The notes beneath the pieces are model-generated. The model searched no databases. It was not told the DNA's origin and saw only the letters and a program-made list of their open reading frames with translations. From assembly GCA_026003195.1 (NCBI GenBank), contig BPGU01000002.1, forward strand, positions 806,001 through 870,000: a DNA stretch of 64,000 bases. The letters are read 5' to 3'. Source of the stretch: Armatimonadota bacterium. GTDB lineage: Bacteria; Armatimonadota; HRBIN16. Shown here piece by piece: positions 21,134-38,493 of the stretch. The translations under genes and the position numbers were made by a program. Within the stretch, counting starts at the first letter, position 1. Every line of letters starts with the position of its first letter.

Positions 21134-21211
21134 CCCCTCCTGGGTGATGACAGGTGCATCCACCTGTCACTGCAGCCAAGTTCGATAGAGACAACCCCTT
21201 CGCTTGCCCGC

Positions 21212-21241
21212 TTGACATACCTCTTTTGCTGACAATATAAT
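21212..21241 (+). promoter_or_regulatory. Consensus promoter of the ECF sigma gene
   Basis: TTGACA (21212-21217), an 18-bp spacer and TATAAT (21236-21241) lie ~60 bp before the sigma-factor start. This is a strong vegetative promoter. Confidence 0.75.
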
Positions 21242-21301
21242 GAGCGCACAGGTGTTCCCTTGGATGCGCAGTGCGCCAGTATGTCCCGAGGAGAGATGAT
21301 C

Positions 21302-21763
21302 ATGTATCGTCGTGAGGCGACTATACGATACTTCCTTCGGCGCGGCTTTGCCCTGCGCGAGGCGGAGGACCTGACGCAAGAAGTACAGATACGTCTCTGG
21401 CAGGCACAACAGCAAGGCACGGAAAGCAGTGATGCCCTGTGGCGTTGTACGTGTCGCTCGGTGTTGTGCGACCATCTGCGTCGCCTGCGTAGGGAACGAC
21501 AGCTGCTCGTGCCGCTGGAAACGGCTATCGATCACCCCGCCCCCGCTCAGGACAACGACCTCGTCATCTGCATACACGAGAGCCTGTCCCTTCTTCCAGA
21601 TACACAACGAACGATCGTACACCTGCACGTTGTGGAGGGGATGACCTTCGAACAGATTGCCGTCGAACTGGGCAAAACGCCCTGCGCGGTGCAGAAGCAG
21701 TATCAGCGCGCCATCCAGAAGTTAAGGAAATACTTTGATTTGCCAGACAATGGGGGGGGGTAG
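21302..21763 (+). CDS. ECF-type RNA polymerase sigma factor
   Basis: 153 residues from the ATG at 21302 (GAGGAGAG ends 7 nt upstream). Region 2 reads RRGFALREAEDLTQEVQIRLW (~residues 13-33) and region 4 contains LPDTQRTIVHLHVVEGMTFEQIA and the helix-turn-helix GKTPCAVQKQYQRAIQKLRKYF. No anti-sigma gene follows. The last codons are formed by a run of nine G (21752-21760) reading GGG just before TAG, so gain or loss of one G would add 10-20 foreign residues. A sequence repeated before two downstream genes could be its target promoter. Confidence 0.88.
   Translation: MYRREATIRYFLRRGFALREAEDLTQEVQIRLWQAQQQGTESSDALWRCTCRSVLCDHLRRLRRERQLLVPLETAIDHPAPAQDNDLVICIHESLSLLPDTQRTIVHLHVVEGMTFEQIAVELGKTPCAVQKQYQRAIQKLRKYFDLPDNGGG
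21752..21760 (+). repeat. G9 homopolymer at the 3' end of the sigma gene
   Basis: Nine consecutive G encode the final three Gly codons. Tract-length change would alter only the tail of the protein beyond region 4. Confidence 0.9.
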
Positions 21764-21824
21764 AACCGCTTATCTTGTGGTTGGGATAATAAGCCAAGAG
21801 ATTTTTTGTGCAACAGTATAGAAC

Positions 21825-21853
21825 ATGTCCTGTTTTGGCTCGTTCGAACGTCT
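21825..21853 (+). promoter_or_regulatory. 29-bp repeated upstream element, copy 1 (candidate ECF promoter)
   Basis: 27 of 29 bases match 23596-23624. It ends in CGTCT, typical of ECF -10 elements, and has GTCCTG ~17 bp before it. It lies 37 bp before a secreted-protein gene and about 60 bp behind the ECF sigma gene. Here CGTCT overlaps a TATAAT (21853-21858). Confidence 0.45.
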
Positions 21854-21890
21854 ATAATAGCAGTAGAACAGCACACCACGGAGGCGTACA

Positions 21891-22353
21891 ATGTTAGCAA
21901 GAATGGCAACGCTATCCATACTAGCGGGATTGGTAATCTGGACATCTCTCAAAGCGGAGGCGCAGTACTCTGGCTACCTACCTTTGCAGACAGGAGGTTG
22001 CGAACAGACGACGGTTACTGTCCGAAGCGGAAGTTGGTTTACCTACATAATCCGCCAGCGCGATATGGATACTGTGTTAGTCGGTTATCCCCCCCCAGCA
22101 AATGCAAGCTGCAGATCCTACCTGTGCTATCGAGTGTACCGCCTGGCAGAGCGGTAGGCAACGTATTGAAATCACGCTTTCTGAGGTGACGCAAGACAAC
22201 ACTATACGATGGCAAGTTGAGACACGTGCTAAAAACGTGAGCACTCGCACAACGTTCTACGATACTTTCGTATTATACAACGCGCGTCTCGACACCGACG
22301 TATACAAGGATCCCTGGCTTGAAGTTAGTCAAAGGGTAGTAGTAGAGCCCTAG
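21891..22353 (+). pseudogene. Secreted protein gene interrupted by a frameshift at a C8 tract
   Basis: Frame 1 begins at ATG 21891 with a signal peptide (MLARMATLSILAGLVIWTSLKAEA) and reads to a stop at 22157. From the C-run at 22089-22096 a second frame reads on without a stop (QQMQAADPTCAIECTAWQSG ... WLEVSQRVVVEP) to 22353. Removing one C joins them into ~153 residues with one signal peptide and one continuous C-terminal domain. The protein family is not recognised. The tract is either a contingency site, a true mutation or an assembly error. Confidence 0.65.
22089..22096 (+). repeat. C8 homopolymer at the frameshift point
   Basis: Eight C in a row. Seven or ten C would put the two halves of the flanking secreted-protein gene in frame. 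Confidence 0.9.
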
Positions 22354-22494
22354 CTATTACTTTGGGTATTATAGAGCCTTGATGCTGACCTGCTGCTGTG
22401 GGTTGCCAAGTTGCTCTTCTCGCTAGGTTGTGGGTTCGTCATTCACACGATTTTGAGCATTGATGCACCAATAAGCACTCTAAGGAGGTTCACA

Positions 22495-23556
22495 ATGTTC
22501 ACACGGCGATACGGCTTGCTATGCATCTTGGCTTCGGTTATTATGCTGATGCTCATCACGAATGGCTGGACTCAGAGGAACGGCAACTCCTCATCTCAAG
22601 ATGCCTCCGTGCCTGTTCGCTTTGTACAGATACTTCAGCAACTGAGTAGCAAGATGTCGGATGGCTTGCTTGCGGAATGTTACTACTCTGACGAACTACT
22701 GATGCCCCCGAATGCAATGGCTCTACGCAGCAGTGTGGACATCCAAAGCGTTGCCGCAGCTTACCATCGCGAGATTGTACGCACAGGCAACACATATATC
22801 GTGCGTCCCAGTCCACAGGCACCCCCAACATTCGGTACAACCTTCAAGCGAAAGCAGGAGCAAAGGAACGCCTCGCTATTTCCGTCAGCGTGGTGGAGGG
22901 GAACAGGATACGACCAGATGGAAATTCGCGCGAGGAAGAGTGAAGAGGGCGTAGTGCGGGTTTTCGTCAAAGCGATAGCAGTACCTCTGTCCACATTCTG
23001 CGAACGGTTCTCCAAAGAGACGGGTTGGCAACTGCAAGTGGAGCCAGAGTTGCAGGCAGTGCGCATCTTTGCCAAATGGCAATCTGTGTCGCCAGGGGAG
23101 GTAGTAGAAGCTATCTCGCTGTTGCTGCGCAGTGAGGTACAGGTATCTTTCTCGCGCAGTGCGGAACAGAAGCAGGCAGAACAACGTGCCCTGGAAGAAG
23201 AGGCATCTTTGGCAGAACAGGCAAAGGCGACATACACACGTGCAAAGTATACCGAACAGCTGCTACCAGAGTTGCTGAGCGAGCTGACGCCAGAGGAGCT
23301 GGAACGGTTTCAACAGGGACAAGAGGTAGAGGTGCCCGTTTCGCGTTTGTCGTCAGGTCTGCAAGATCGCGCTCTGCGTTTCGCAGCAGACTTATGGGAT
23401 GCGCTGTTTGCGACAATGGAACCTCAGTCGGGAGAGATATTCGTGAGAGAGCATCTGCGTGAATGCGAACCCGTACTCCTGCTACCTACGCTGCAGCGGA
23501 GTAACCTGGGTATTCGTTTCAGGAACCCTTCTAGTGGGGAGGAATATGTGCTGTGA
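22495..23556 (+). CDS. Secreted protein with secretin/TonB N-terminal (STN)-like segment
   Basis: 353 residues from the ATG at 22495, which has AGGAGG 6 nt upstream. There is a signal peptide (RRYGLLCILASVIMLMLITNGWTQ). The middle part (VRVFVKAIAVPLSTFCERFS ... SVSPGEVVEAISLLL) resembles an STN/secretin short domain: a beta strand, a helix, then a second helix. A Glu/Gln-rich helical stretch and a C-terminal domain follow. Its last ~43 codons are duplicated at 27727-27864. The function is unknown. Confidence 0.7.
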   Translation: MFTRRYGLLCILASVIMLMLITNGWTQRNGNSSSQDASVPVRFVQILQQLSSKMSDGLLAECYYSDELLMPPNAMALRSSVDIQSVAAAYHREIVRTGNTYIVRPSPQAPPTFGTTFKRKQEQRNASLFPSAWWRGTGYDQMEIRARKSEEGVVRVFVKAIAVPLSTFCERFSKETGWQLQVEPELQAVRIFAKWQSVSPGEVVEAISLLLRSEVQVSFSRSAEQKQAEQRALEEEASLAEQAKATYTRAKYTEQLLPELLSELTPEELERFQQGQEVEVPVSRLSSGLQDRALRFAADLWDALFATMEPQSGEIFVREHLRECEPVLLLPTLQRSNLGIRFRNPSSGEEYVL

Positions 23557-23563
23557 AGGCAAG
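23426..23563 (+). repeat. 138-bp direct repeat, copy 1 (3' end of the STN-like gene)
   Basis: About 93% identical to 27727-27864. Copy 1 includes the last 43 codons and stop of the STN-like gene. The two copies bracket 4.2 kb containing six genes and a prepilin. Confidence 0.9.
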
Positions 23564-23595
23564 TATCCGGGCTTCTCTATCATGAAAGCCGATGG

Positions 23596-23624
23596 ATGTC
23601 CTGTTTTGGCTCGTTCAAGCGTCT
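23596..23624 (+). promoter_or_regulatory. 29-bp repeated upstream element, copy 2 (candidate ECF promoter)
   Basis: This copy also ends in CGTCT and lies 34 bp before the likely start of the thioredoxin-fold protein gene. The sharing of this element by two genes next to an ECF sigma gene is the basis for the promoter call. Confidence 0.45.
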
Positions 23625-23658
23625 TTTATATATGGAAGGCAATCGGCAAGGTGGTGTT

Positions 23659-24300
23659 ATGTCCCAAACCTCGTTGCGTCAAGGAAAATCCAGCAAGTGG
23701 TACGAGTGGGTTCGCGACCCGGAGCGGCGGGAGTTGGTTGCTATCGCATTCCTTGCTTTTATTCTGGGCTATCTGCTGGCGTCGCGCTACGGACTGAGCG
23801 CATACTCCTTATGGACGCGCTGGCAACTTGCCTCCGGCGTGGAACCGTGGAGACAAAAGGCTCTGCGTGCCGACCCGCCCATCGGTGAGCGTATCGGCCT
23901 ACCGCCGCTCCAAAGTATCGATGGCAAACAGATGTCGTTACCTCTGCCGCAGGGATACACTGCCCTGATATTTATGACTGACCCACGCAGCTGCCAGGCG
24001 AACAGCACGTTGCGGGGTATCCGCGAGCGTCAAGCCACAGGACGTTTTCGGAACCTCCATCTATTTATCGTTGTTCCCACTTTTCGTCCTGCTCAGGCAA
24101 GGCAACTGTGGCAGGCGTGGAAAGTAGATTTCCCTGTGCTGCTGGATCCCGAAGCCCGATTAACAAGAAAGCTCAACGTGGTGTTTGAAAATCGGGCATA
24201 TCTCTTTGACCCACAGAGCAGACTGCTCTATCGCACGAACTACTTACAGAAGGGCGAAGAGATTGAGCGAGACGTCTTGCGTATCATCGGAGAGCGATGA
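23659..24300 (+). CDS. Membrane-anchored thioredoxin-fold-like protein without CxxC
   Basis: 213 residues from the ATG at 23659, which has AAGGTGG close upstream; an alternative ATG is at 23632. A helix at ~24-45 (ELVAIAFLAFILGYLLASRYG) anchors a periplasmic domain whose pattern (LPPLQSIDGKQMSLPLPQGY, ALIFMTDPRSCQANS, VDFPVLLDPEARLTRKLNV) matches AhpC/TSA or TlpA-like folds. Only one Cys is present at the active-site position, so classical disulfide exchange is unlikely. The downstream gene overlaps its stop by 4 bp. Confidence 0.7.
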   Translation: MSQTSLRQGKSSKWYEWVRDPERRELVAIAFLAFILGYLLASRYGLSAYSLWTRWQLASGVEPWRQKALRADPPIGERIGLPPLQSIDGKQMSLPLPQGYTALIFMTDPRSCQANSTLRGIRERQATGRFRNLHLFIVVPTFRPAQARQLWQAWKVDFPVLLDPEARLTRKLNVVFENRAYLFDPQSRLLYRTNYLQKGEEIERDVLRIIGER

Positions 24301-24791
24301 GGAACAGTACCATGCGCCAGAAGATGTGGGTGATGACCGTTGCTTTCCTTGGGGGATGGACAAGCGTCTCCTTGCAGCAATGGTGGCAGGCGCGCGACTC
24401 TGCCAGACAAGCCTGTGAAGTCAACCTGCGCATCTTGTACGCGACAGTGCAGACACTTGCCCAGCAGGGGAACATACGGGATGTCACGGTGGAACAAATA
24501 GCCATTGCCCTGCGCGATGGTATACGCCTCTCACCGAAATTAGAGGCTTATATAGCCGGATCGCCCGAAGCTTCGGATGACCAACATGCAAGAGGCACGC
24601 TCTTGATGGGCGCACAAACTGCCCTAGTGTGTCCTTCCGACCCCGACTTTGCCGTCAAGGCAATGTTGAGCCGTTCCCCCGCGCTGGGTTTTGAGAGCAG
24701 TTATCGTCTGTTCCCTGACCTGCACACGGTTGCTGTCTGTCCCTACCACCGGCACGCTGTGTGGTCGGACGGCACTCTCCACAGGGAGTAG
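24297..24791 (+). CDS. Pseudopilin-like exported protein
   Basis: 164 residues. ATGA overlap with the previous gene shows coupling. One N-terminal hydrophobic stretch (MWVMTVAFLGGWTSVSL) is followed by a helix (ARQACEVNLRILYATVQTL) and a C-terminal part with CPSDPD and CPYHRHAVWSDGT. These resemble the conserved positions of DUF1559-like pseudopilins (NLRQL..., CP..., DGH), but the prepilin G|FTLIE site is missing. Probably an accessory pilin-like protein (inference). Confidence 0.6.
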   Translation: MRNSTMRQKMWVMTVAFLGGWTSVSLQQWWQARDSARQACEVNLRILYATVQTLAQQGNIRDVTVEQIAIALRDGIRLSPKLEAYIAGSPEASDDQHARGTLLMGAQTALVCPSDPDFAVKAMLSRSPALGFESSYRLFPDLHTVAVCPYHRHAVWSDGTLHRE

Positions 24792-24796
24792 TGGTG

Positions 24797-25216
24797 ATGA
24801 GGAGACGTTGGGAATACCTATTGTGGTCGGCGGTTGCAGGGGCGGTGTGGAACGTCGGTTTGTGTTCTCTGGTAGACCTTGTCACCTGGCAGTTTCGCTA
24901 CTTCAGCCATCCGCTGGGCATTGTGTGGACAGGTAGCGTCGAGACCCTTCTATGGCGAGGAGCTCTCGTAGGAGCGGTTGCAGGATGGTGGGGAATGAAG
25001 CGTCTTACCCTGCTTGTGGCATCTGTGGCTGCAGGAGTATTGCTTGCAGGCATACATCTGGTATCGCTGGTCAGTATGGGTACATACTTGCGGTATGCCC
25101 TGGACATGCGTGTAGCGATCAACTTTGCGCTGAACGGCTTATTGGTTGGTACTGTTTCTGGCTGGCTGGTACGTCATGCGATGGGAAAACCGCGTGGGGA
25201 GGAGACAGCGCAATGA
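24797..25216 (+). CDS. Polytopic membrane protein, unknown function
   Basis: 139 residues from ATG 24797, 5 bp after the previous stop. Four hydrophobic helices (around WSAVAGAVWNVGLCSLV, LLWRGALVGAVAGWW, LLVASVAAGVLLAGIHLV and FALNGLLVGTVSGWLV) are visible. The family is not recognised. It is in the same operon and overlaps the next gene by 4 bp. Confidence 0.65.
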   Translation: MRRRWEYLLWSAVAGAVWNVGLCSLVDLVTWQFRYFSHPLGIVWTGSVETLLWRGALVGAVAGWWGMKRLTLLVASVAAGVLLAGIHLVSLVSMGTYLRYALDMRVAINFALNGLLVGTVSGWLVRHAMGKPRGEETAQ

Positions 25217-25650
25217 GTCTTCTACGACGTGTCATGGCAAGAGGCAATGTTCCAGCGACTACGCAAGGGGGTCCGGAGACATCCTTGCCGCCGCTTGACT
25301 CGTTAGCTATCCGCTTAAGCGCACTTTCTCTGGTAACTCAAACGGGGAACGGTTCGCCGGCGCAGTTAACCCCCCTTGTTAGTAGAGACCGCAATGCCCG
25401 CCTGGTGGACCTGTTCGACAAAACCGTTGTGGTCTCCGTACGAGATACGGTGCGCGCCTTGCCAGTGTTTGAAGTCATCGCAGAGTGGCAAATGTCGCTG
25501 TGTTTCGCGGACAGCGTAAGCAAGGAACAGGTGATTCTTCCTCACAACTGGCAGTGGATCGTGCGCCATATTGAGCCGTATACGGCGGAGCTGGTCGCTC
25601 AGCTAACGTTTCGTGGTGGGTTCTCCCCTGTAATCCTGCAAATCTCGTGA
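25213..25650 (+). CDS. Conserved-looking cytosolic protein, unknown function
   Basis: 145 residues starting at ATG 25213, overlapping the preceding stop (ATGA) with GGGGAGGA upstream. There is no signal peptide or membrane helix. The middle is hydrophobic beta-like (KTVVVSVRDTVRALPVFEVIAEW). No family is recognised. It stops 7 bp before the glycosyltransferase gene and is therefore part of the same transcript. Confidence 0.6.
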   Translation: MSLLRRVMARGNVPATTQGGPETSLPPLDSLAIRLSALSLVTQTGNGSPAQLTPLVSRDRNARLVDLFDKTVVVSVRDTVRALPVFEVIAEWQMSLCFADSVSKEQVILPHNWQWIVRHIEPYTAELVAQLTFRGGFSPVILQIS

Positions 25651-25657
25651 GGCTACT

Positions 25658-26716
25658 ATGTTCACGGTGTTGTTTCTAACACGTGGTTCAGGGATGGGAC
25701 ATGCTGCGCGAGACATGTTGATAGCGCAGGAGTTAAAAAGATTGTGTCCCGAAGCAGAGATACGCTTTGCGTCTTATGCCGACGGCGCGAAGGCTTTACG
25801 GATGCATGGCATAGATGCTATTGACCTGATGCTTCCCCCGATGGGCAATATTCACGAGCGCATCCCGCGCATAGGCAAACTGTTGCGTGAGCATGCTCCT
25901 GCTCTGGTAGTATCGGACGAGGAGCTGTTTGCCCTACCGCTCTGCCATGTATTCGATATCCCAGCTGTTTTTATCACAAACTGGCTCGCCACAGAGGAAA
26001 CCGTTTCGTACATCTCATTACTACTGAACGCAGAGCGCATCATCGTTACCGACATAGAAGACTCTTTCATGCCTCCAGTATGGCTTGAAAAGTTGGTAGA
26101 GTTCGTGGGACCTGTTTGTCGCTTAGAGGCGATTACAGAAGACAAACGCTCCCTGCGCCAACAGCTTGGCCTTGACCCGAATAGAAGGCTTGTGCTCATT
26201 ACCGCAGGTGGTAGCGATGTCTCCGATGTGGTGTATTTTGGAATGTGCGCATATGCGCTCGCTCGCATCAAGGAACCATTACAGGTCATTGCCGTTGCGG
26301 GGCCTTGGTACAAGATGCTTGAGCCCATGCAGTACGCTTGGACAACGTCCATTCAGTTTACTGATTATATTCCTCAACTCACGCGATATATCGCTGCGAG
26401 CGATTTCGTGCTGACACGCGGAGGACACTCCACGCTTTGGGAGCTCGCCCTGCATGGCATCCCATCGATTTGCATTCCGCATCCTCGTCTCGTCGACCCA
26501 CTGAACGAATACTACGCTTTCACCATGCAGAGGCGTGGCACTACCATAGTCCTCCCGGAGCGAGAGTTGAACGTAGAAATGCTATTAGCTAAGTGTGAAA
26601 ACTTGCTGCAAAATAAGGCGATATACCAATCGATGTCTCAGGCGGGTTTAACGTATCGAGAACGTGTCGGTACACGCAAAGCTGCTGAAGCGATTGCCTC
26701 ATACCTACCATCCTGA
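25658..26716 (+). CDS. GT28/MurG-like glycosyltransferase
   Basis: 352 residues with the GT-B layout: N-terminal glycine-rich loop (TRGSGMGHAARDMLIAQEL, residues 8-26), a central linker, and the C-terminal nucleotide-sugar domain with ITAGGSDVSD and RGGHSTLWELALHGIPSICIP, the donor-binding signature of the MurG/GT28 group. It likely transfers a sugar from a nucleotide donor. The length matches. It is followed 14 bp later by a prepilin gene, which makes pilin or envelope glycosylation a possibility (inference). Confidence 0.8.
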   Translation: MFTVLFLTRGSGMGHAARDMLIAQELKRLCPEAEIRFASYADGAKALRMHGIDAIDLMLPPMGNIHERIPRIGKLLREHAPALVVSDEELFALPLCHVFDIPAVFITNWLATEETVSYISLLLNAERIIVTDIEDSFMPPVWLEKLVEFVGPVCRLEAITEDKRSLRQQLGLDPNRRLVLITAGGSDVSDVVYFGMCAYALARIKEPLQVIAVAGPWYKMLEPMQYAWTTSIQFTDYIPQLTRYIAASDFVLTRGGHSTLWELALHGIPSICIPHPRLVDPLNEYYAFTMQRRGTTIVLPERELNVEMLLAKCENLLQNKAIYQSMSQAGLTYRERVGTRKAAEAIASYLPS

Positions 26717-26730
26717 GGAGGGAAAAAGCC

Positions 26731-27324
26731 ATGTCATCGCAACACCATAGCAGGTGCTTCACTCAAGGGTTCACGCTGATAGAGATGCTCACCGTACTGG
26801 TGATTATTGCCATACTGGCGCAGTATCTCGTGTCGGTCTCTATGCAGGCACGGGAAAAGGCGTACCGTGCCAACTGCATCTCCAACCTGCGCCAACTGCT
26901 CCAGGCGTGCAAGATGTACGAGAGCGATTACGGTCAGCTGCCCGTACATTGTCACGGGGTATATCAGGGCATAGACTTCGGGGAAGGATGGTGGCAACAG
27001 ACCACATTCCCTTACGTGCGCAACAGAGACATCTATCTCTGTCCCTTAGACCCGGAAAGAGGGCTGTTTCCTGGAAGTACGGGAGGAGGTCCTCCGGTTA
27101 GCTATGATTATACTTTGACATGTCCGTATCTAGGCGAACACGGTGAGTACCGTGAGCCAACAGTGCGCTCGCCTCTTATTTTGGACATGCACCACATGAG
27201 CGTTCGCATTGTTCTCATCGCCAGGTATGACGGCTCTGTAGAGAACGCCCCCTTAAGCAGGTACGAAGAGATTCGATATGAACCTGCGGATGGAAGAGGA
27301 GTGCTATTTCCCCCACCACGGTAG
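26731..27324 (+). CDS. Prepilin-type protein
   Basis: 197 residues. Prepilin peptidase site FTQG|FTLIEMLTVLVIIAILA (G at ~residue 13) is followed by QAREKAYRANCISNLRQLLQ, the standard DUF1559-like start. Contains CPLDPE and a C-terminal beta part. GAGGAGGG precedes the ATG. It is smaller than the other two prepilins in the window and has no obvious C-terminal DGH motif. Confidence 0.85.
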   Translation: MSSQHHSRCFTQGFTLIEMLTVLVIIAILAQYLVSVSMQAREKAYRANCISNLRQLLQACKMYESDYGQLPVHCHGVYQGIDFGEGWWQQTTFPYVRNRDIYLCPLDPERGLFPGSTGGGPPVSYDYTLTCPYLGEHGEYREPTVRSPLILDMHHMSVRIVLIARYDGSVENAPLSRYEEIRYEPADGRGVLFPPPR

Positions 27325-27353
27325 AGACCCTGACCGGAAAGGAGGTGAAGCCA

Positions 27354-27644
27354 GTGTATCGGATCGCATGGCGAAAAGTGCGTCTCGTAGCAGCCGGGCT
27401 GTTCACCCTGACTGTAGTCCCTGCTGTCTGGGCGGGCAACACCTGTAGGGATACCATTCGGCCAACGTGTCAGTACATCGGTACGGTTCGTATTCGGTGT
27501 TGCCAGATATTGAGCAACCACTACAATTATGGACCTTGCCTCTGTAAGCAATACCGAGACAGTCAGGGCTACACACACTATCTGAGTGGTGGAATTGAAG
27601 ACACCGGCCCCAGCTGCGAGCCGCAGGATGATGTATGTTGCTGA
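27354..27644 (+). CDS. Small exported Cys-rich protein
   Basis: 96 residues from GTG 27354, which has AGGAGG 8 nt upstream; GTG 27345 overlaps that site. A signal peptide (RLVAAGLFTLTVVPAVWAG) leaves a ~67-residue mature protein with nine Cys, including two CC pairs and a C-terminal VCC. No family is recognised. The pattern suggests a disulfide-stabilised secreted peptide. It is followed by a strong terminator, so it is the last gene of the operon. Confidence 0.7.
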   Translation: MYRIAWRKVRLVAAGLFTLTVVPAVWAGNTCRDTIRPTCQYIGTVRIRCCQILSNHYNYGPCLCKQYRDSQGYTHYLSGGIEDTGPSCEPQDDVCC

Positions 27645-27668
27645 TATTGGTTTGACCCGGCACGTGGT

Positions 27669-27722
27669 GCGTTTGGAAGCCAGCGAATGGAAAATCCCGA
27701 TGTGCGCTTCCAAACGCTTTTT
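27669..27722 (+). terminator. Intrinsic terminator after the Cys-rich protein gene
   Basis: A 12-bp perfect stem (GCGTTTGGAAGC / GCTTCCAAACGC) with a 25-nt loop is followed by TTTTT. Confidence 0.8.
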
Positions 27723-27726
27723 CGTT

Positions 27727-27864
27727 AGTCGGGAGAGATATTCGTGAGAGAGCATCTGCGTGAATGCGAACCCGTACTCCTGCTACCTACGCCGCAGCGG
27801 AGTAACCTGGGTATCCGTCTCAGAAATCCTTCCAGTGGAGAGGAGTATGTGCTTTGAAGGCAAG
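27727..27864 (+). repeat. 138-bp direct repeat, copy 2 (fragment of the STN-like gene)
   Basis: It carries only the last 43 codons and stop of the gene ending at 23556, with about nine substitutions, and begins directly after a terminator. No promoter or start accompanies it, so it is a gene remnant left by duplication or recombination. From 27865 to 28088 I see no convincing gene. Confidence 0.9.
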
Positions 27865-28088
27865 CGTCTGGTCGTTACTGCTTCGTTGATGCATCTGGAT
27901 TGCCCCTGTCAACCTGGAGTGGCAGTGCGCATTGCGTCGGTTGCGAAACTATCCCGAAGTTGCCTGCCGGACGATTTCTATCAACTGGTAGACTTCAACC
28001 ACCTGACGTGCCCCGAAGAGTAAGCATCCCAGACCGTCACGGTACCTGTACGGGAACTTTCTGACCCGCATTTATCGTTACTAGAAGC

Positions 28089-30083
28089 ATGAACCGCGTC
28101 AGCGCGATCAGCTACAAGCCGCTGTTCTGGCTATCCGTTGCTGCAGGCTTGAGCCTGCTGGCACTCACACAACGACACCATCAGACGCCACAGGAGAACG
28201 CATCGATGCCCGTCTATCAGCCGTCCGTCCACGCCCCGGAGTTCCCCGAAGGGCTCGAATGGTTGAACACCGACCGCCCCCTGCGCCTGAAAGACCTGCG
28301 GGGCAAAATCGTGATGCTGGACTTCTGGACCTACTGCTGCATCAACTGTATGCACATCATCCCCGACCTGAAACGGCTGGAGAAGAAATACCCCAACGAG
28401 CTGGTGGTGATCGGTGTACACTCCGCCAAGTTCACCACCGAGAAGGAGAGCGAGAACATCCGTCAGGCTATCCTGCGCTACCGCATCGAGCACCCGGTGG
28501 TAAACGACCGCGATATGGTGGTCTGGACACTGTACGGCGCGAGCGCGTGGCCCACGGTGGTGCTGATAGACCCCAACGGCAAGGTGGTGGGCGCGATGTC
28601 GGGCGAGGGCATCTATGAACCCTTTGACCGCGCCATTCAAGAGCTGATTGCCAAACACGACCCGCGCGGTGAGATAGACCGCACGCCCCTGAACCTCAAG
28701 CTGGAGCGGGAAAAAGCGCCGCGCGGTATCCTCGAGTTCCCCGGCAAGGTGCTGGCGGACGAGCGTAGCGGGCAACTGTTCATCGCCGACTCGGGCAATA
28801 ACCGCATCGCCGTGGTGTCGTTGAAGGATAACACCCTGCAAGAGGTCATCGGCAGCGGCGAGGAGGGTTTCCAGGACGGCAAGTTCGAGGAGGCGCGGTT
28901 CCGCCATCCGCAGGGCATGGCATACGACGGCAAAAGGCTGTACGTCGCCGACACCGAGAACCATGCTATTCGGGTGATAGATTTTGCGAAACGCACGGTG
29001 AGCACCATCGCGGGCACGGGCAGGCAGGCTCGCTTCTGGCCCGAGGGCGGCAACGCGCGGGAGACCGACCTCAGCTCGCCGTGGGACGTGGTGCTGGTTG
29101 ACGCTACCCTGTATATCGCGATGGCGGGCATCCACCAGCTGTGGAAGCTGGATATGCGAAAGAACGTGGTGGAACCCTATGCAGGCAGTGGGCGCGAGGC
29201 GCGATTCGACAGCTATCTCCCGCAGGCAGCGCTGGCGCAACCCTCAGGCATTACCACCGACGGCAAACGCCTCTATTTTGCCGATAGTGAAAGCAGCTCC
29301 CTGCGTGCTGCCGACCTGAACCCCAGCGGGATGGTGGAGACACTGGTGGGCGGCGACCTGTTCGATTTCGGCGATATCGACGGCGAGGGCAGACGTGCTC
29401 GCTTGCAGCATCCACTCGGCGTGGTGTACCATAGCGGCTCCATCTACGTCGCCGATACCTACAACAACAAGATCAAACGCTACGACCTGGCTACCAGGCG
29501 CATCGAGACCTTCCTTGGCGACGGTACGGCAGGCTTGCGCGACGGCGACCGCCCCACCTTCGACGAGCCGGGCGGATTGAGCATCGCGGGGGGCAAACTG
29601 TACATCGCCGACACCAACAACCATGCCATCCGCGTCGCAGACCTGAAGACGAAGCGCGTGGAGACGCTGGTCCTTCGCGGACTGGAAAAGTTACGTCCGC
29701 CACAGGCGTTACTGCGCCCTAGCGTGATGCCGCTACCGCCACAGTCCGTCTCCGCAGGCGAGGTGGAGTTGCTTCTGAATCTCGCCCTGCCTGCAGGCTA
29801 TAAACTCAACCCGCTGGCGAACTCGCGCCTGAAGGTGCAAGCTGTGCCCACTGCATCGGTCAGCGACCTGCCCTCGGAGGGTTTTGCTCTGAACAACTTG
29901 CCCGTGCGTGTTCCGTTGAAGGTGCGCTCCGACGGTGAACTGCAGATGACCGCTGAAATATACTACTGCCAGAGCGGGAAGGAGGCGCTGTGCTATTTCA
30001 AGGAGCTGCGGTGGCGCGTGCCGCTGAAGGTGCAGGCAGGCGGGGCGAAGCAGGTGAAGGTGGAGCATGCGGTTGGGCAGTAA
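28089..30083 (+). CDS. NHLRC2-like protein: thioredoxin domain plus NHL-repeat propeller
   Basis: 664 residues. An N-terminal signal/anchor (residues ~12-26) precedes a thioredoxin domain with FWTYCCINCMHIIPDL (~residues 81-96), the CCINC motif found in animal NHLRC2. Then come five to six NHL repeats (LFIADSGNNRIAVV, LYVADTENHAIRVID, IYVADTYNNKIKRYD, LYIADTNNHAIRVAD), forming a beta-propeller, and a C-terminal beta domain. Probably a periplasmic redox-linked protein. The partner is unknown and it stands alone. Confidence 0.88.
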   Translation: MNRVSAISYKPLFWLSVAAGLSLLALTQRHHQTPQENASMPVYQPSVHAPEFPEGLEWLNTDRPLRLKDLRGKIVMLDFWTYCCINCMHIIPDLKRLEKKYPNELVVIGVHSAKFTTEKESENIRQAILRYRIEHPVVNDRDMVVWTLYGASAWPTVVLIDPNGKVVGAMSGEGIYEPFDRAIQELIAKHDPRGEIDRTPLNLKLEREKAPRGILEFPGKVLADERSGQLFIADSGNNRIAVVSLKDNTLQEVIGSGEEGFQDGKFEEARFRHPQGMAYDGKRLYVADTENHAIRVIDFAKRTVSTIAGTGRQARFWPEGGNARETDLSSPWDVVLVDATLYIAMAGIHQLWKLDMRKNVVEPYAGSGREARFDSYLPQAALAQPSGITTDGKRLYFADSESSSLRAADLNPSGMVETLVGGDLFDFGDIDGEGRRARLQHPLGVVYHSGSIYVADTYNNKIKRYDLATRRIETFLGDGTAGLRDGDRPTFDEPGGLSIAGGKLYIADTNNHAIRVADLKTKRVETLVLRGLEKLRPPQALLRPSVMPLPPQSVSAGEVELLLNLALPAGYKLNPLANSRLKVQAVPTASVSDLPSEGFALNNLPVRVPLKVRSDGELQMTAEIYYCQSGKEALCYFKELRWRVPLKVQAGGAKQVKVEHAVGQ

Positions 30084-30145: not shown

Positions 30146-30418
30146 ATGGCAGAACGAGCGATTTCCGTTCATGAACTCAAGGAGCGGCTTAGCCATTATC
30201 TGCAGATAGTGCGTGCGGGTGAAACAGTTGTGGTTACCCATCGCGGAACACCTGTTGCCCGCCTCGTGCCAACCGGAAGAACCCTGCAACAACAGCTATC
30301 CAGCCTGCGGGAGGCCGGTCTGATAGAGTGGAACGAGCAGAAACTGTATCCCTCCATGCCCCCCGTCAAAGTGAGGCAGGGAAGCATCTCGGAGATACTG
30401 GTGGAGGAGCGTCGTTGA
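30146..30418 (+). CDS. Phd/YefM-family antitoxin
   Basis: 90 residues. The N-terminal Phd fold (ISVHELKERLSHYLQIVRAG, then VVTHRGTPVARLVP) binds DNA as a dimer, and the disordered C-terminal half would wrap the toxin. GAGGGGGTAG precedes the ATG. It overlaps the toxin start by 4 bp, the usual type II toxin-antitoxin order. It is likely to repress its own promoter. Confidence 0.9.
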   Translation: MAERAISVHELKERLSHYLQIVRAGETVVVTHRGTPVARLVPTGRTLQQQLSSLREAGLIEWNEQKLYPSMPPVKVRQGSISEILVEERR

Positions 30419-30849
30419 TTCTTTATCTGGACGCAAGTGCACTGGTGAAGTGCTATGTAGAGGAGGCAGGCTCACTGGACGTTATCCGTCTTGTCCAGGA
30501 GTCAGAATTTGCTGGCACTGCCATCCTGAGTCGTGCCGAGGTAGTTGCTGCGATAGCCAGGGCAGCTCGTATGGGAAACATATCTCGCGAGGAGGGCGAA
30601 CTGGCTATAGAAACGTTTGAGGCAGACTGGGCAAATGTAGTGCGTATCCAGATGACAGAGGCGATTGTCGCACAATCTGCCAGAATCGCATGGCAAAAAG
30701 GCTTGCGAGGTTATGATGCTATGCACCTGGCCTGCGCAGTTGCCTGGCGTGATGCTCTGCAAAGACCGATAGTGATGGTCACCTATGACCGCGAGCTCTG
30801 GCAAGGTGCACAGCAGGAGGGTTTCGAGCTTTTTCCCCAGTTCCGGTAA
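30415..30849 (+). CDS. VapC-like PIN-domain ribonuclease toxin
   Basis: 144 residues from TTG 30415, which overlaps the antitoxin stop (TTGA) and has GGAGGAG upstream. PIN acidic residues: Asp in LYLDASALVK (~6), Glu in SRAEVVAAI (~43), Asp in GYDAMHLACA (~101) and Asp in TYDREL. VapC enzymes cut RNA in a Mg-dependent way, often initiator tRNA or rRNA. It pairs with the Phd-type antitoxin. The catalytic set is complete, so it is probably active. Confidence 0.9.
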   Translation: MILYLDASALVKCYVEEAGSLDVIRLVQESEFAGTAILSRAEVVAAIARAARMGNISREEGELAIETFEADWANVVRIQMTEAIVAQSARIAWQKGLRGYDAMHLACAVAWRDALQRPIVMVTYDRELWQGAQQEGFELFPQFR

Positions 30850-37758: not shown

Positions 37759-38493
37759 ATGTTCAAAAATGATGCACCTTCTAGTCAGGTCAGTCAAGTG
37801 GGCACTCGTGCTTCTAGAGCGAGGAGATTTGTGTGGATGTCTCGGCTAACCATCTTGTCGATACTGCTGTTTCTGCTGGCTTCCTATTTTGCCGTAAATG
37901 CCATCAGTGCGATATTGAGCGCTACGGTTGTATGGTACTTCGCATCAGGCGGATACGACCAGGCTGTAATCAACGCAGACAGGACCTACTGGTGGTGTAC
38001 ACTGTGGAAAGCGCCCTTCGCTTGGGTAGGGCGGAAGGAGAAGTATGCAGACCCGAAATGGCAAGCGATAGCATTGAAGGGGATGGCACTGTTCCGCAAA
38101 GGAAGCATTAAAGAAGCATATCCTTATCTGTCGTATGCTGCGGTGCATGGTTCTCCGTATATGTCCAACTATCCTCTATTAGGAGACCTCTTCTTGGAAG
38201 CAGGGGTTGCTGGTATCCATCTAGGCTACTATGAAGAAGCGGTTATATACCTTCGCCGAGCAGTCCAGCAAAGCAGTCGCACTGCGGAAGCGTATTTTTA
38301 CCTTGGTGAAGCGCTGATACGCGTGGATGCTGTCAAAGGTGCGAAGGAGGCTTGGCGTAAGGCTATCGAGGAGGGAAAAGAGCCTTGGAAGAGTAAAGCT
38401 TCCAATCGTCTACGCCTGTTAGGAAAACCCCGGCGAGTCGTTAATGGCGTGTTGCACAGTGAACAGTTGAAGCCCCAATCTTCTAGGGATTGA
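37759..38493 (+). CDS. Membrane-anchored TPR-like protein (candidate cassette A partner)
   Basis: 244 residues. ATG 37759 follows AGGAGG. An N-terminal basic region and one hydrophobic segment (LTILSILLFLLASYFAVNA) precede helical repeats (WQAIALKGMALFRKGSIKEA, then EAVIYLRRAVQQSS and AEAYFYLGEALIRVDAVKGA) of tetratricopeptide type. It follows the cassette A tip by 186 bp and its stop overlaps the first codon of cassette B (TTGA). By position it could be an immunity or adaptor protein (inference). Confidence 0.65.
   Translation: MFKNDAPSSQVSQVGTRASRARRFVWMSRLTILSILLFLLASYFAVNAISAILSATVVWYFASGGYDQAVINADRTYWWCTLWKAPFAWVGRKEKYADPKWQAIALKGMALFRKGSIKEAYPYLSYAAVHGSPYMSNYPLLGDLFLEAGVAGIHLGYYEEAVIYLRRAVQQSSRTAEAYFYLGEALIRVDAVKGAKEAWRKAIEEGKEPWKSKASNRLRLLGKPRRVVNGVLHSEQLKPQSSRD

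Follow-up and report, generated by a model that had tools for sequence, protein, structure and literature searches.

A module comprising a sigma factor gene, a gene designated hyp167 and an STN-like gene is placed between pheT and a thioredoxin/NHL gene in a 64-kb window of the 4.58-Mb genome of an Armatimonadota bacterium (HRBIN16; contig BPGU01000002.1; hereafter G000), whose numbering is used for all positions below. The 3′ end of the STN-like gene is repeated further downstream, and the two copies bracket a 4.2-kb group of genes, which we refer to as the unit. We consider it rather probable that this unit represents a small non-autonomous genomic island, which would have originated beside another copy of the module, recombined in the 3′ end of the STN-like gene and spread via homologous flanks. 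A block of sequence covering the unit and both repeat copies is entirely free of differences between G000 and a second genome of the genus, G005.

For the comparison of G000 and G005, 800 kb of each genome was used, of which 251,714 bases were aligned. The two genomes differ at 38,023 of these bases, with a median of 15.2% over 209 one-kb windows. The difference-free block is 5,077 bp in size and is the longest identical run in the comparison (next longest: 1,463 bp), extending past the repeat on both sides, by 112 bp ahead of copy 1 and by 519 bp beyond copy 2. In the zones flanking it, 12/1,877 bases (21437-23313) and 9/933 bases (28391-29323) differ, as compared to 1,833/20,361 aligned bases (9.0%) in the rest of the window, and divergence along the window changes in steps of 5.5%, 0.6%, 0%, 1.0% and 6.8%. 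The block seems to have passed between the G000 and G005 lineages very recently, most simply by homologous recombination through the flanking sequence. Excision and re-insertion at the repeats is disfavoured, since the identity extends past both repeats rather than ending there. As the sequence beyond both repeats travelled along, the repeats do not represent the edges of the recent move. The block would clearly exemplify the passage of a small group of genes, none recognizable as a mobility gene, between lineages approximately 15% apart.

The direct repeats around a 4.2-kb gene group, which had been described in an initial annotation of the window, are real. The copies are 145 nucleotides (nt) in length with 92% identity and a spacing of 4301, and BLAST recovers 138 nt of the repeat (93% identity; E = 1.1e-54), a value at which the similarity cannot be ascribed to chance. 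A general repeat, found at many unrelated sites, could be ruled out, as only these two copies occur in the whole genome (BLAST). Both copies are in frame and end on the same STN stop codon. Repeat nt 1-66 are identical between them, and all differences lie beyond nt 66 (repeat positions 67, 89, 93, 98, 101, 107, 113, 119 and 128, and, after the stop codon, 139, 140 and 143). The separate genome G005 shows the same two-copy arrangement, with the spacing likewise 4301 bp.

The segment between the repeats has the appearance of a single complete transcription unit: it opens with a promoter-like site (P2), continues with seven genes of the same strand and closes with a terminator-like hairpin (Table 1). 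Copy 2 starts four nt past the T run that closes this hairpin, which was not listed by a simple terminator scan restricted to loops of 3-8. The genes of the module and the unit have a GC content at third codon positions of 0.47-0.67, while that of the pheS, pheT and NHL genes is 0.79-0.80. The initial annotation had left out the seventh gene, at 25213-25650, for which no Pfam family was found in the longer frame 24952-25647, and none in PADLOC. Its glycosyltransferase and prepilin labels are substantiated by Pfam, while the thioredoxin-like label is based on a weak match below the cut-off, and no fitting family was found for the products it labelled pseudopilin-like and STN-like. The AhpC/TSA-like protein has, by eye, a membrane-anchor-like start, and its reading frame as listed runs from 23596, inside P2. 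For the STN-like protein neither Pfam nor NCBIfam provided a fitting family, including the STN family itself; the fold model obtained for it was too poor for a structure search (mean predicted local distance difference test score: 50.9), and a scan of viral contigs with the family of this protein returned no relatives of the module.

Table 1. Features of the module, the 4.2-kb unit and the exchanged block, in window positions
Feature	Position	Strand	Remarks
Sigma-70-type promoter-like site of sigma gene	21212-21241	+	TTGACA-18-TATAAT; 12/12 consensus letters
ECF-type RNA polymerase sigma factor	21260-21763	+	167 aa; Pfam Sigma70_r4_2, E=1.3e-12
Promoter-like site P1	21826-21852	+	TGTCCTG-N16-CGTC; ahead of hyp167-STN operon; also before same gene in G009
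hyp167 gene	21891-22353	+	Split into overlapping frames orf88 and orf83 near run of C
STN-like gene	22411-23556	+	Intact; start perhaps ATG 22495; copy 1 at 3′ end; family alignment made
Direct repeat copy 1	23426-23570	+	3′ end of STN-like gene 22411-23556
Promoter-like site P2	23597-23623	+	TGTCCTG-N16-CGTC; head of 4.2-kb unit
Weakly thioredoxin/AhpC-TSA-like protein	23659-24300	+	Pfam AhpC-TSA, E=0.0058, below cut-off
Small protein, "pseudopilin-like" in the initial annotation	24297-24791	+	Open reading frame; no fitting family
Membrane protein (by eye)	24761-25216	+	Open reading frame; no family
145-aa protein	25213-25650	+	ATG read; no family; missing from the initial annotation
Glycosyltransferase	25658-26716	+	Family 28 C-terminal domain; Pfam Glyco_tran_28_C, E=1.6e-17
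Prepilin with DUF1559 domain	26731-27324	+	Pfam SBP_bac_10 (DUF1559), E=1e-8; N_methyl, E=1.6e-5; TIGR02532
Small Cys-rich protein	27345-27644	+	Open reading frame, 99 aa; signal-peptide-like start by eye; no family
Terminator-like hairpin	27669-27722	+	12-bp outer stem, then five T; fold z = -3.65
Direct repeat copy 2	27727-27871	+	3′ end of second STN allele, putative; G009 flank match extends to 27876
Recently exchanged block, putative	23314-28390	.	5,077 bp; zero differences from G005; covers unit and both repeats

P2 is 89% identical over 35 nt to P1, the site ahead of the hyp167-STN operon; upstream of P2, past this match, there is no resemblance to the P1 region. P1 and P2, promoter-like sites of the ECF type, are the only sites in G000 that match a longer form of the shared pattern with two or fewer mismatches. 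Two such sites are found in G005 and one in G009, while the pattern is absent from seven other genomes of the genus and a reversed control pattern has no match in any of the ten. Since P1 and P2 share this pattern and a gene for a sigma factor of the extracytoplasmic function (ECF) type heads the module, the unit appears to be adapted to the local sigma factor, which would drive both operons. In Pfam, region 4 of this sigma factor is matched, with region 2 below the cut-off. Its own gene is preceded by a perfect sigma-70-type site, one of five detected in a promoter scan of the region (4.8 in shuffled sequences; the other four score 9-10 letters), and TTGACA with the stretch downstream of it is likewise found ahead of the sigma gene in the paralogous loci L019 (G005:C3) and L020 (G009:C54). 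A comparable arrangement is known for the ECF41 sigma factors, which, according to the accessible text of PMC3426412, have a large C-terminal extension and neighbouring targets with the promoter TGTCACA-N16-CGTC. As in ECF41, the sigma gene here lies beside genes with TGTC..-N16-CGTC promoter-like sites, but the 167-aa protein has no large C-terminal extension and the −35 box reads TGTCCTG rather than TGTCACA. The transferred segment may as such be complete for transcription, its promoter-like site being suited to the adjoining sigma module.

The unit is present in two of ten genomes of the genus, G000 and G005; three of the eight genomes without it are only 77-89% complete. Among 291 genomes of the phylum searched with the first gene of the unit, 29 gave a match, at 100% identity in G000 and G005 and at 39% or less in the other 27. 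Outside G000 and G005, the matches listed for the glycosyltransferase in the phylum search include none above 35% identity, and a scan of contigs of other genomes gave no close relative, although records very near G000 were perhaps left out of that scan. The pheT-NHL interval, which occupies 21134-28088 in the window, is 347-914 bp in size in all four of the examined relatives that have both genes on one contig (G009, G003, G001 and G002; L021, L022, L025 and L031), with no match to the genes of the module or the unit. Of the remaining genomes, G004 and G008 have NHL contigs without a visible pheT, while G006 and G007 fall outside this comparison. The interval varies among these relatives and contains, by eye, different short genes, as would be expected of a site that acquires DNA frequently. 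At another chromosomal site, next to genes labelled by eye as mannosidase and heparinase, the module is found without the unit in G009; it is decayed in G005, and remnants are observed in G004. In G000 the mannosidase and heparinase genes are on different contigs, with no clear module sequence beside them.

The initial annotation had proposed that recombination between the repeats would delete or amplify the segment, and that strains lacking or duplicating it be sought. Relatives that have the module and lack the segment do exist, but they carry the module at the other chromosomal site, while G000 and G005 both keep the segment and two repeat copies. No single hybrid repeat at the site was observed among the ten genomes of the genus, in which the locus is present only in G000 and G005. 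Apparent completeness as a unit with its own promoter-like site, rarity in the genus and the likely recent transfer between lineages had all been missed in that annotation.

With regard to the origin of copy 2, 18 of the 19 nt after its gene end agree with the sequence flanking this gene in G009, while the flank of copy 1 does not; this match suggests that the sigma/STN module originally ended in copy 2. At nt 67-138 the copies differ at 9/72 positions, and their distance to the paralogues in L019 and L020 is 9-13/72. Seven of the nine differences between the copies are synonymous (P = 0.0016 for two or fewer amino acid changes if unconstrained). This divergence at the level of the paralogues past nt 66, together with the mostly synonymous changes, indicates that copy 2 probably derives from another, once functional STN allele. 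On this view, the crossover, or a gene conversion at a later time, would have occurred within the identical 66-nt stretch.

Part of the initial interpretation, that copy 2 is the remnant of an STN-like gene other than the one ending in copy 1, is thereby retained. Its other part, duplication on the spot, is the basis of an alternative in which duplication of the STN-like gene placed one duplicate on either side of the segment, the second of them was truncated at its 5′ end and the first 66 nt were kept alike by gene conversion. Such a history would be consistent with two in-frame copies sharing a stop codon and with a synonymous bias fitting a former full gene, and conversion would account for the identical stretch, which otherwise has P = 0.022. 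However, copy 2 carries the downstream flank of the module itself, the copies are past nt 66 as far apart as either is from the paralogues at other sites, and nothing resembling the 5′ portion of a further STN gene is left in the 77 nt to the left of copy 2. Given this flank and this degree of divergence, a recent local duplication alone is insufficient, and we regard the duplication scenario as possible, though doubtful.

We suggest instead an island that would have arisen beside another copy of the module. Following recombination in the STN 3′ end, the STN gene would have stayed whole, now ending in copy 1, and the end belonging to the module itself would have been displaced to the far side of the unit, where it forms copy 2. 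Homologous recombination in the flanks may afterwards have carried the entire locus from one lineage to another. If a RecA-type crossover took place within the 66 identical nt, the unit could be lost again with the STN frame left intact; deletion across this stretch is plausible, and amplification through the repeats possible.

Several observations weigh against this proposal. Neither a donor of the unit nor an excised or duplicated form of it was found. The signal for two alleles rests on few sites: three group copy 1 with L019 and copy 2 with L020, one shows the reverse and four place the copies together. With so few informative patterns the two-allele reading is likely, not proven. Given nine differences, an identical run of 66 nt has a chance probability of P = 0.022. 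The sigma gene is open in G000 but broken into two frames in G005 (C1:1364551-1365052) and G009 (C54:57279-57739), and, barring sequencing error, sigma control cannot hold as stated in G005. Conversely, hyp167 is split in G000, while it is open in the paralogues and, as a 153-aa frame, in G005. Exchange between the lineages is furthermore not confined to the block, with identical runs of 1,463, 819 and 628 bp elsewhere, and two genomes do not fix the order of events. The identity might also stem from mixed assembly, though the contigs concerned are 1.2 and 1.6 Mb in size.

An integrative element without an integrase of its own was considered as a further alternative, by analogy with the microcin H47 island of Escherichia coli. 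That island, of 13 kb, codes for an antibacterial peptide and excises also without homologous recombination (PMC3191183, accessible text). The repeats would in this case be attL and attR in the 3′ end of a gene, with the integrase encoded elsewhere. The target gene kept whole on insertion, and the extensive imperfect repeats with an identical core and no integrase found inside, agree with such an element; the same text reports extensive imperfect repeats and no recombinase genes for the H47 island. No integrase family is, however, found among the genes of the unit (Pfam, NCBIfam), there is no tRNA in the 64-kb window, and the sequence occurs at this one locus only. In addition, the transfer took along, at full identity, the 112 bp ahead of copy 1 and the 519 bp beyond copy 2, with divergence rising only further out, a pattern not produced by excision at the repeats. 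We therefore deem an integrative element improbable. The likeness to the H47 island, as far as the latter is described in that text, lies in the small size, the extensive imperfect direct repeats and the lack of recombinase genes inside. The present unit is different in its size of 4.2 kb, in repeats formed by a gene's 3′ end and in the apparent recent movement via flanks. An assembly artefact or cross-contamination, with the block assembled from two related genomes present in the same sample, would likewise yield zero differences over 5 kb between distant genomes, and contamination of G000 is given as 4.82%, but the occurrence of the same arrangement inside the large contigs of two assemblies and the stepwise divergence, rather than one sharp chimeric piece, render this very improbable.

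Overall, the unit looks like a small non-autonomous genomic island with repeats. Among the classical criteria for islands, flanking direct repeats are present, whose role as att sites is putative, while no integrase or recombinase family was detected among the unit genes, and the window has no tRNA. No transposase family, as would be expected of an insertion sequence or transposon, was found among the module and unit proteins scanned (Pfam, NCBIfam). The edges of the module show no clear inverted repeat or mobile-element end; the best local match, for which no shuffled control was run, comprises 16 columns with one gap. With regard to potential loss of the unit, the nearest parallel is the wzy segment of Salmonella Typhimurium, where, according to the accessible text of PMC12074656, a 2.6-kb segment is reversibly deleted between identical intergenic 113-bp repeats, with RecA named by the authors as one possibility. 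In both cases a short gene segment lies between direct repeats of similar length; the repeats here are, however, 92% alike with 66 identical nt and lie inside a gene end, and deletion was observed for wzy only. The minimal lengths for RecA recombination quoted in the same text are 23-27 or 44-90 bp, depending on the pathway, and the 66 identical nt lie above the first range and inside the second. Gain of an island by transformation through homologous arms on both sides has been tested in pneumococci (PMC5850275, accessible text). Gain via homologous flanks is proposed here also, in this case on the basis of the divergence profile. No published report of the present locus was found, in a search made largely without subscription literature.

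A second hyp167-STN pair is located at L030:6742-9043 (G000:C2:787742-790043), the only clear STN locus in G000 apart from the site of the unit, leaving aside a weak, stop-containing match located on a different contig. The identical run of 1,463 bp and the adjoining one of 819 bp both fall on this locus (788 kb). Here the pair differs from that of G005 by 0.13% (flanks: 10%) and from that of G002 by 4.65% (flanks: 20%), while against G009 the difference is 32% over the 695 of 1,549 nt that align (45%; flanks: 20%). Only three spots in the 251,714 aligned bases have kb-windows with less than 1% difference, and two of these are the two clear STN loci of G000. The third (L117:9684-11153; G000:C2:729684-731153) holds a gene which, by eye, codes for a leucine-rich-repeat-like protein. 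At a suf-like locus (by eye) in G005, G009 and G001, the pair differs more than its flanks, with no exchange, and at the mannosidase locus, compared between G009 and G005, pair and flanks differ alike. Exchange is thus observed at two of the four hyp167-STN sites examined, one of the two being the original finding. We tentatively propose, as an unlikely extension, that hyp167-STN may be a polymorphic locus with exchange of alleles among species, at whose STN 3′ end the 4.2-kb unit would dock as cargo. The two sites without exchange of the pair count against this. Were it true, the pattern at the first two sites would fit selection for variety, as in a surface, pilus or competition determinant. 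Should the pattern prove general, hyp167-STN would mark repeated allele-exchange loci in little-studied bacteria and provide a concrete place to seek the function of the pair.

The likeliest product of the unit, as inferred from its gene content, is a Cys-rich protein that is exported and perhaps glycosylated, with pilin-like partners. A full-length relative of the glycosyltransferase, in G019 (25% identity), is the C-terminal part of a protein with an N-terminal radical SAM/SPASM domain, for which the best model is PapB-type (E = 7.7e-76, below the cut-off of that model). No radical SAM family was found among the unit genes of G000 (Pfam, NCBIfam). At this locus of G019 (L106:4165-10540; G019:C33) the fusion gene adjoins genes for a Cys-rich protein (by eye), a prepilin-like protein, a second radical SAM protein and an ECF-like sigma factor (by eye), and the locus looks like a modified-peptide cluster. 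A second relative of the glycosyltransferase, in G251, is preceded by a SPASM-like end (by eye). A role in defence was considered and discarded, with two weak, partial matches the only result from PADLOC.

Additional observations were made in the vicinity of these loci. The run of C around 22089, near which hyp167 is split, differs in length between G000 and G005, which could reflect sequencing error, decay or a switch. A member of a short interspersed repeat family, found in many places in G003, G006, G008 and G009, is located at L020:12845-13094. With a 5-kb query containing it, each of the four genomes yielded 34-55 matches and G000 yielded 18; among the matches listed, most lie on the repeat stretch. 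Downstream of the NHL gene, at 30146-30849 of the window, two small genes that appear toxin-antitoxin-like by eye are present; they have relatives in G009 and G003 and correspond to a gap in the G005 alignment.

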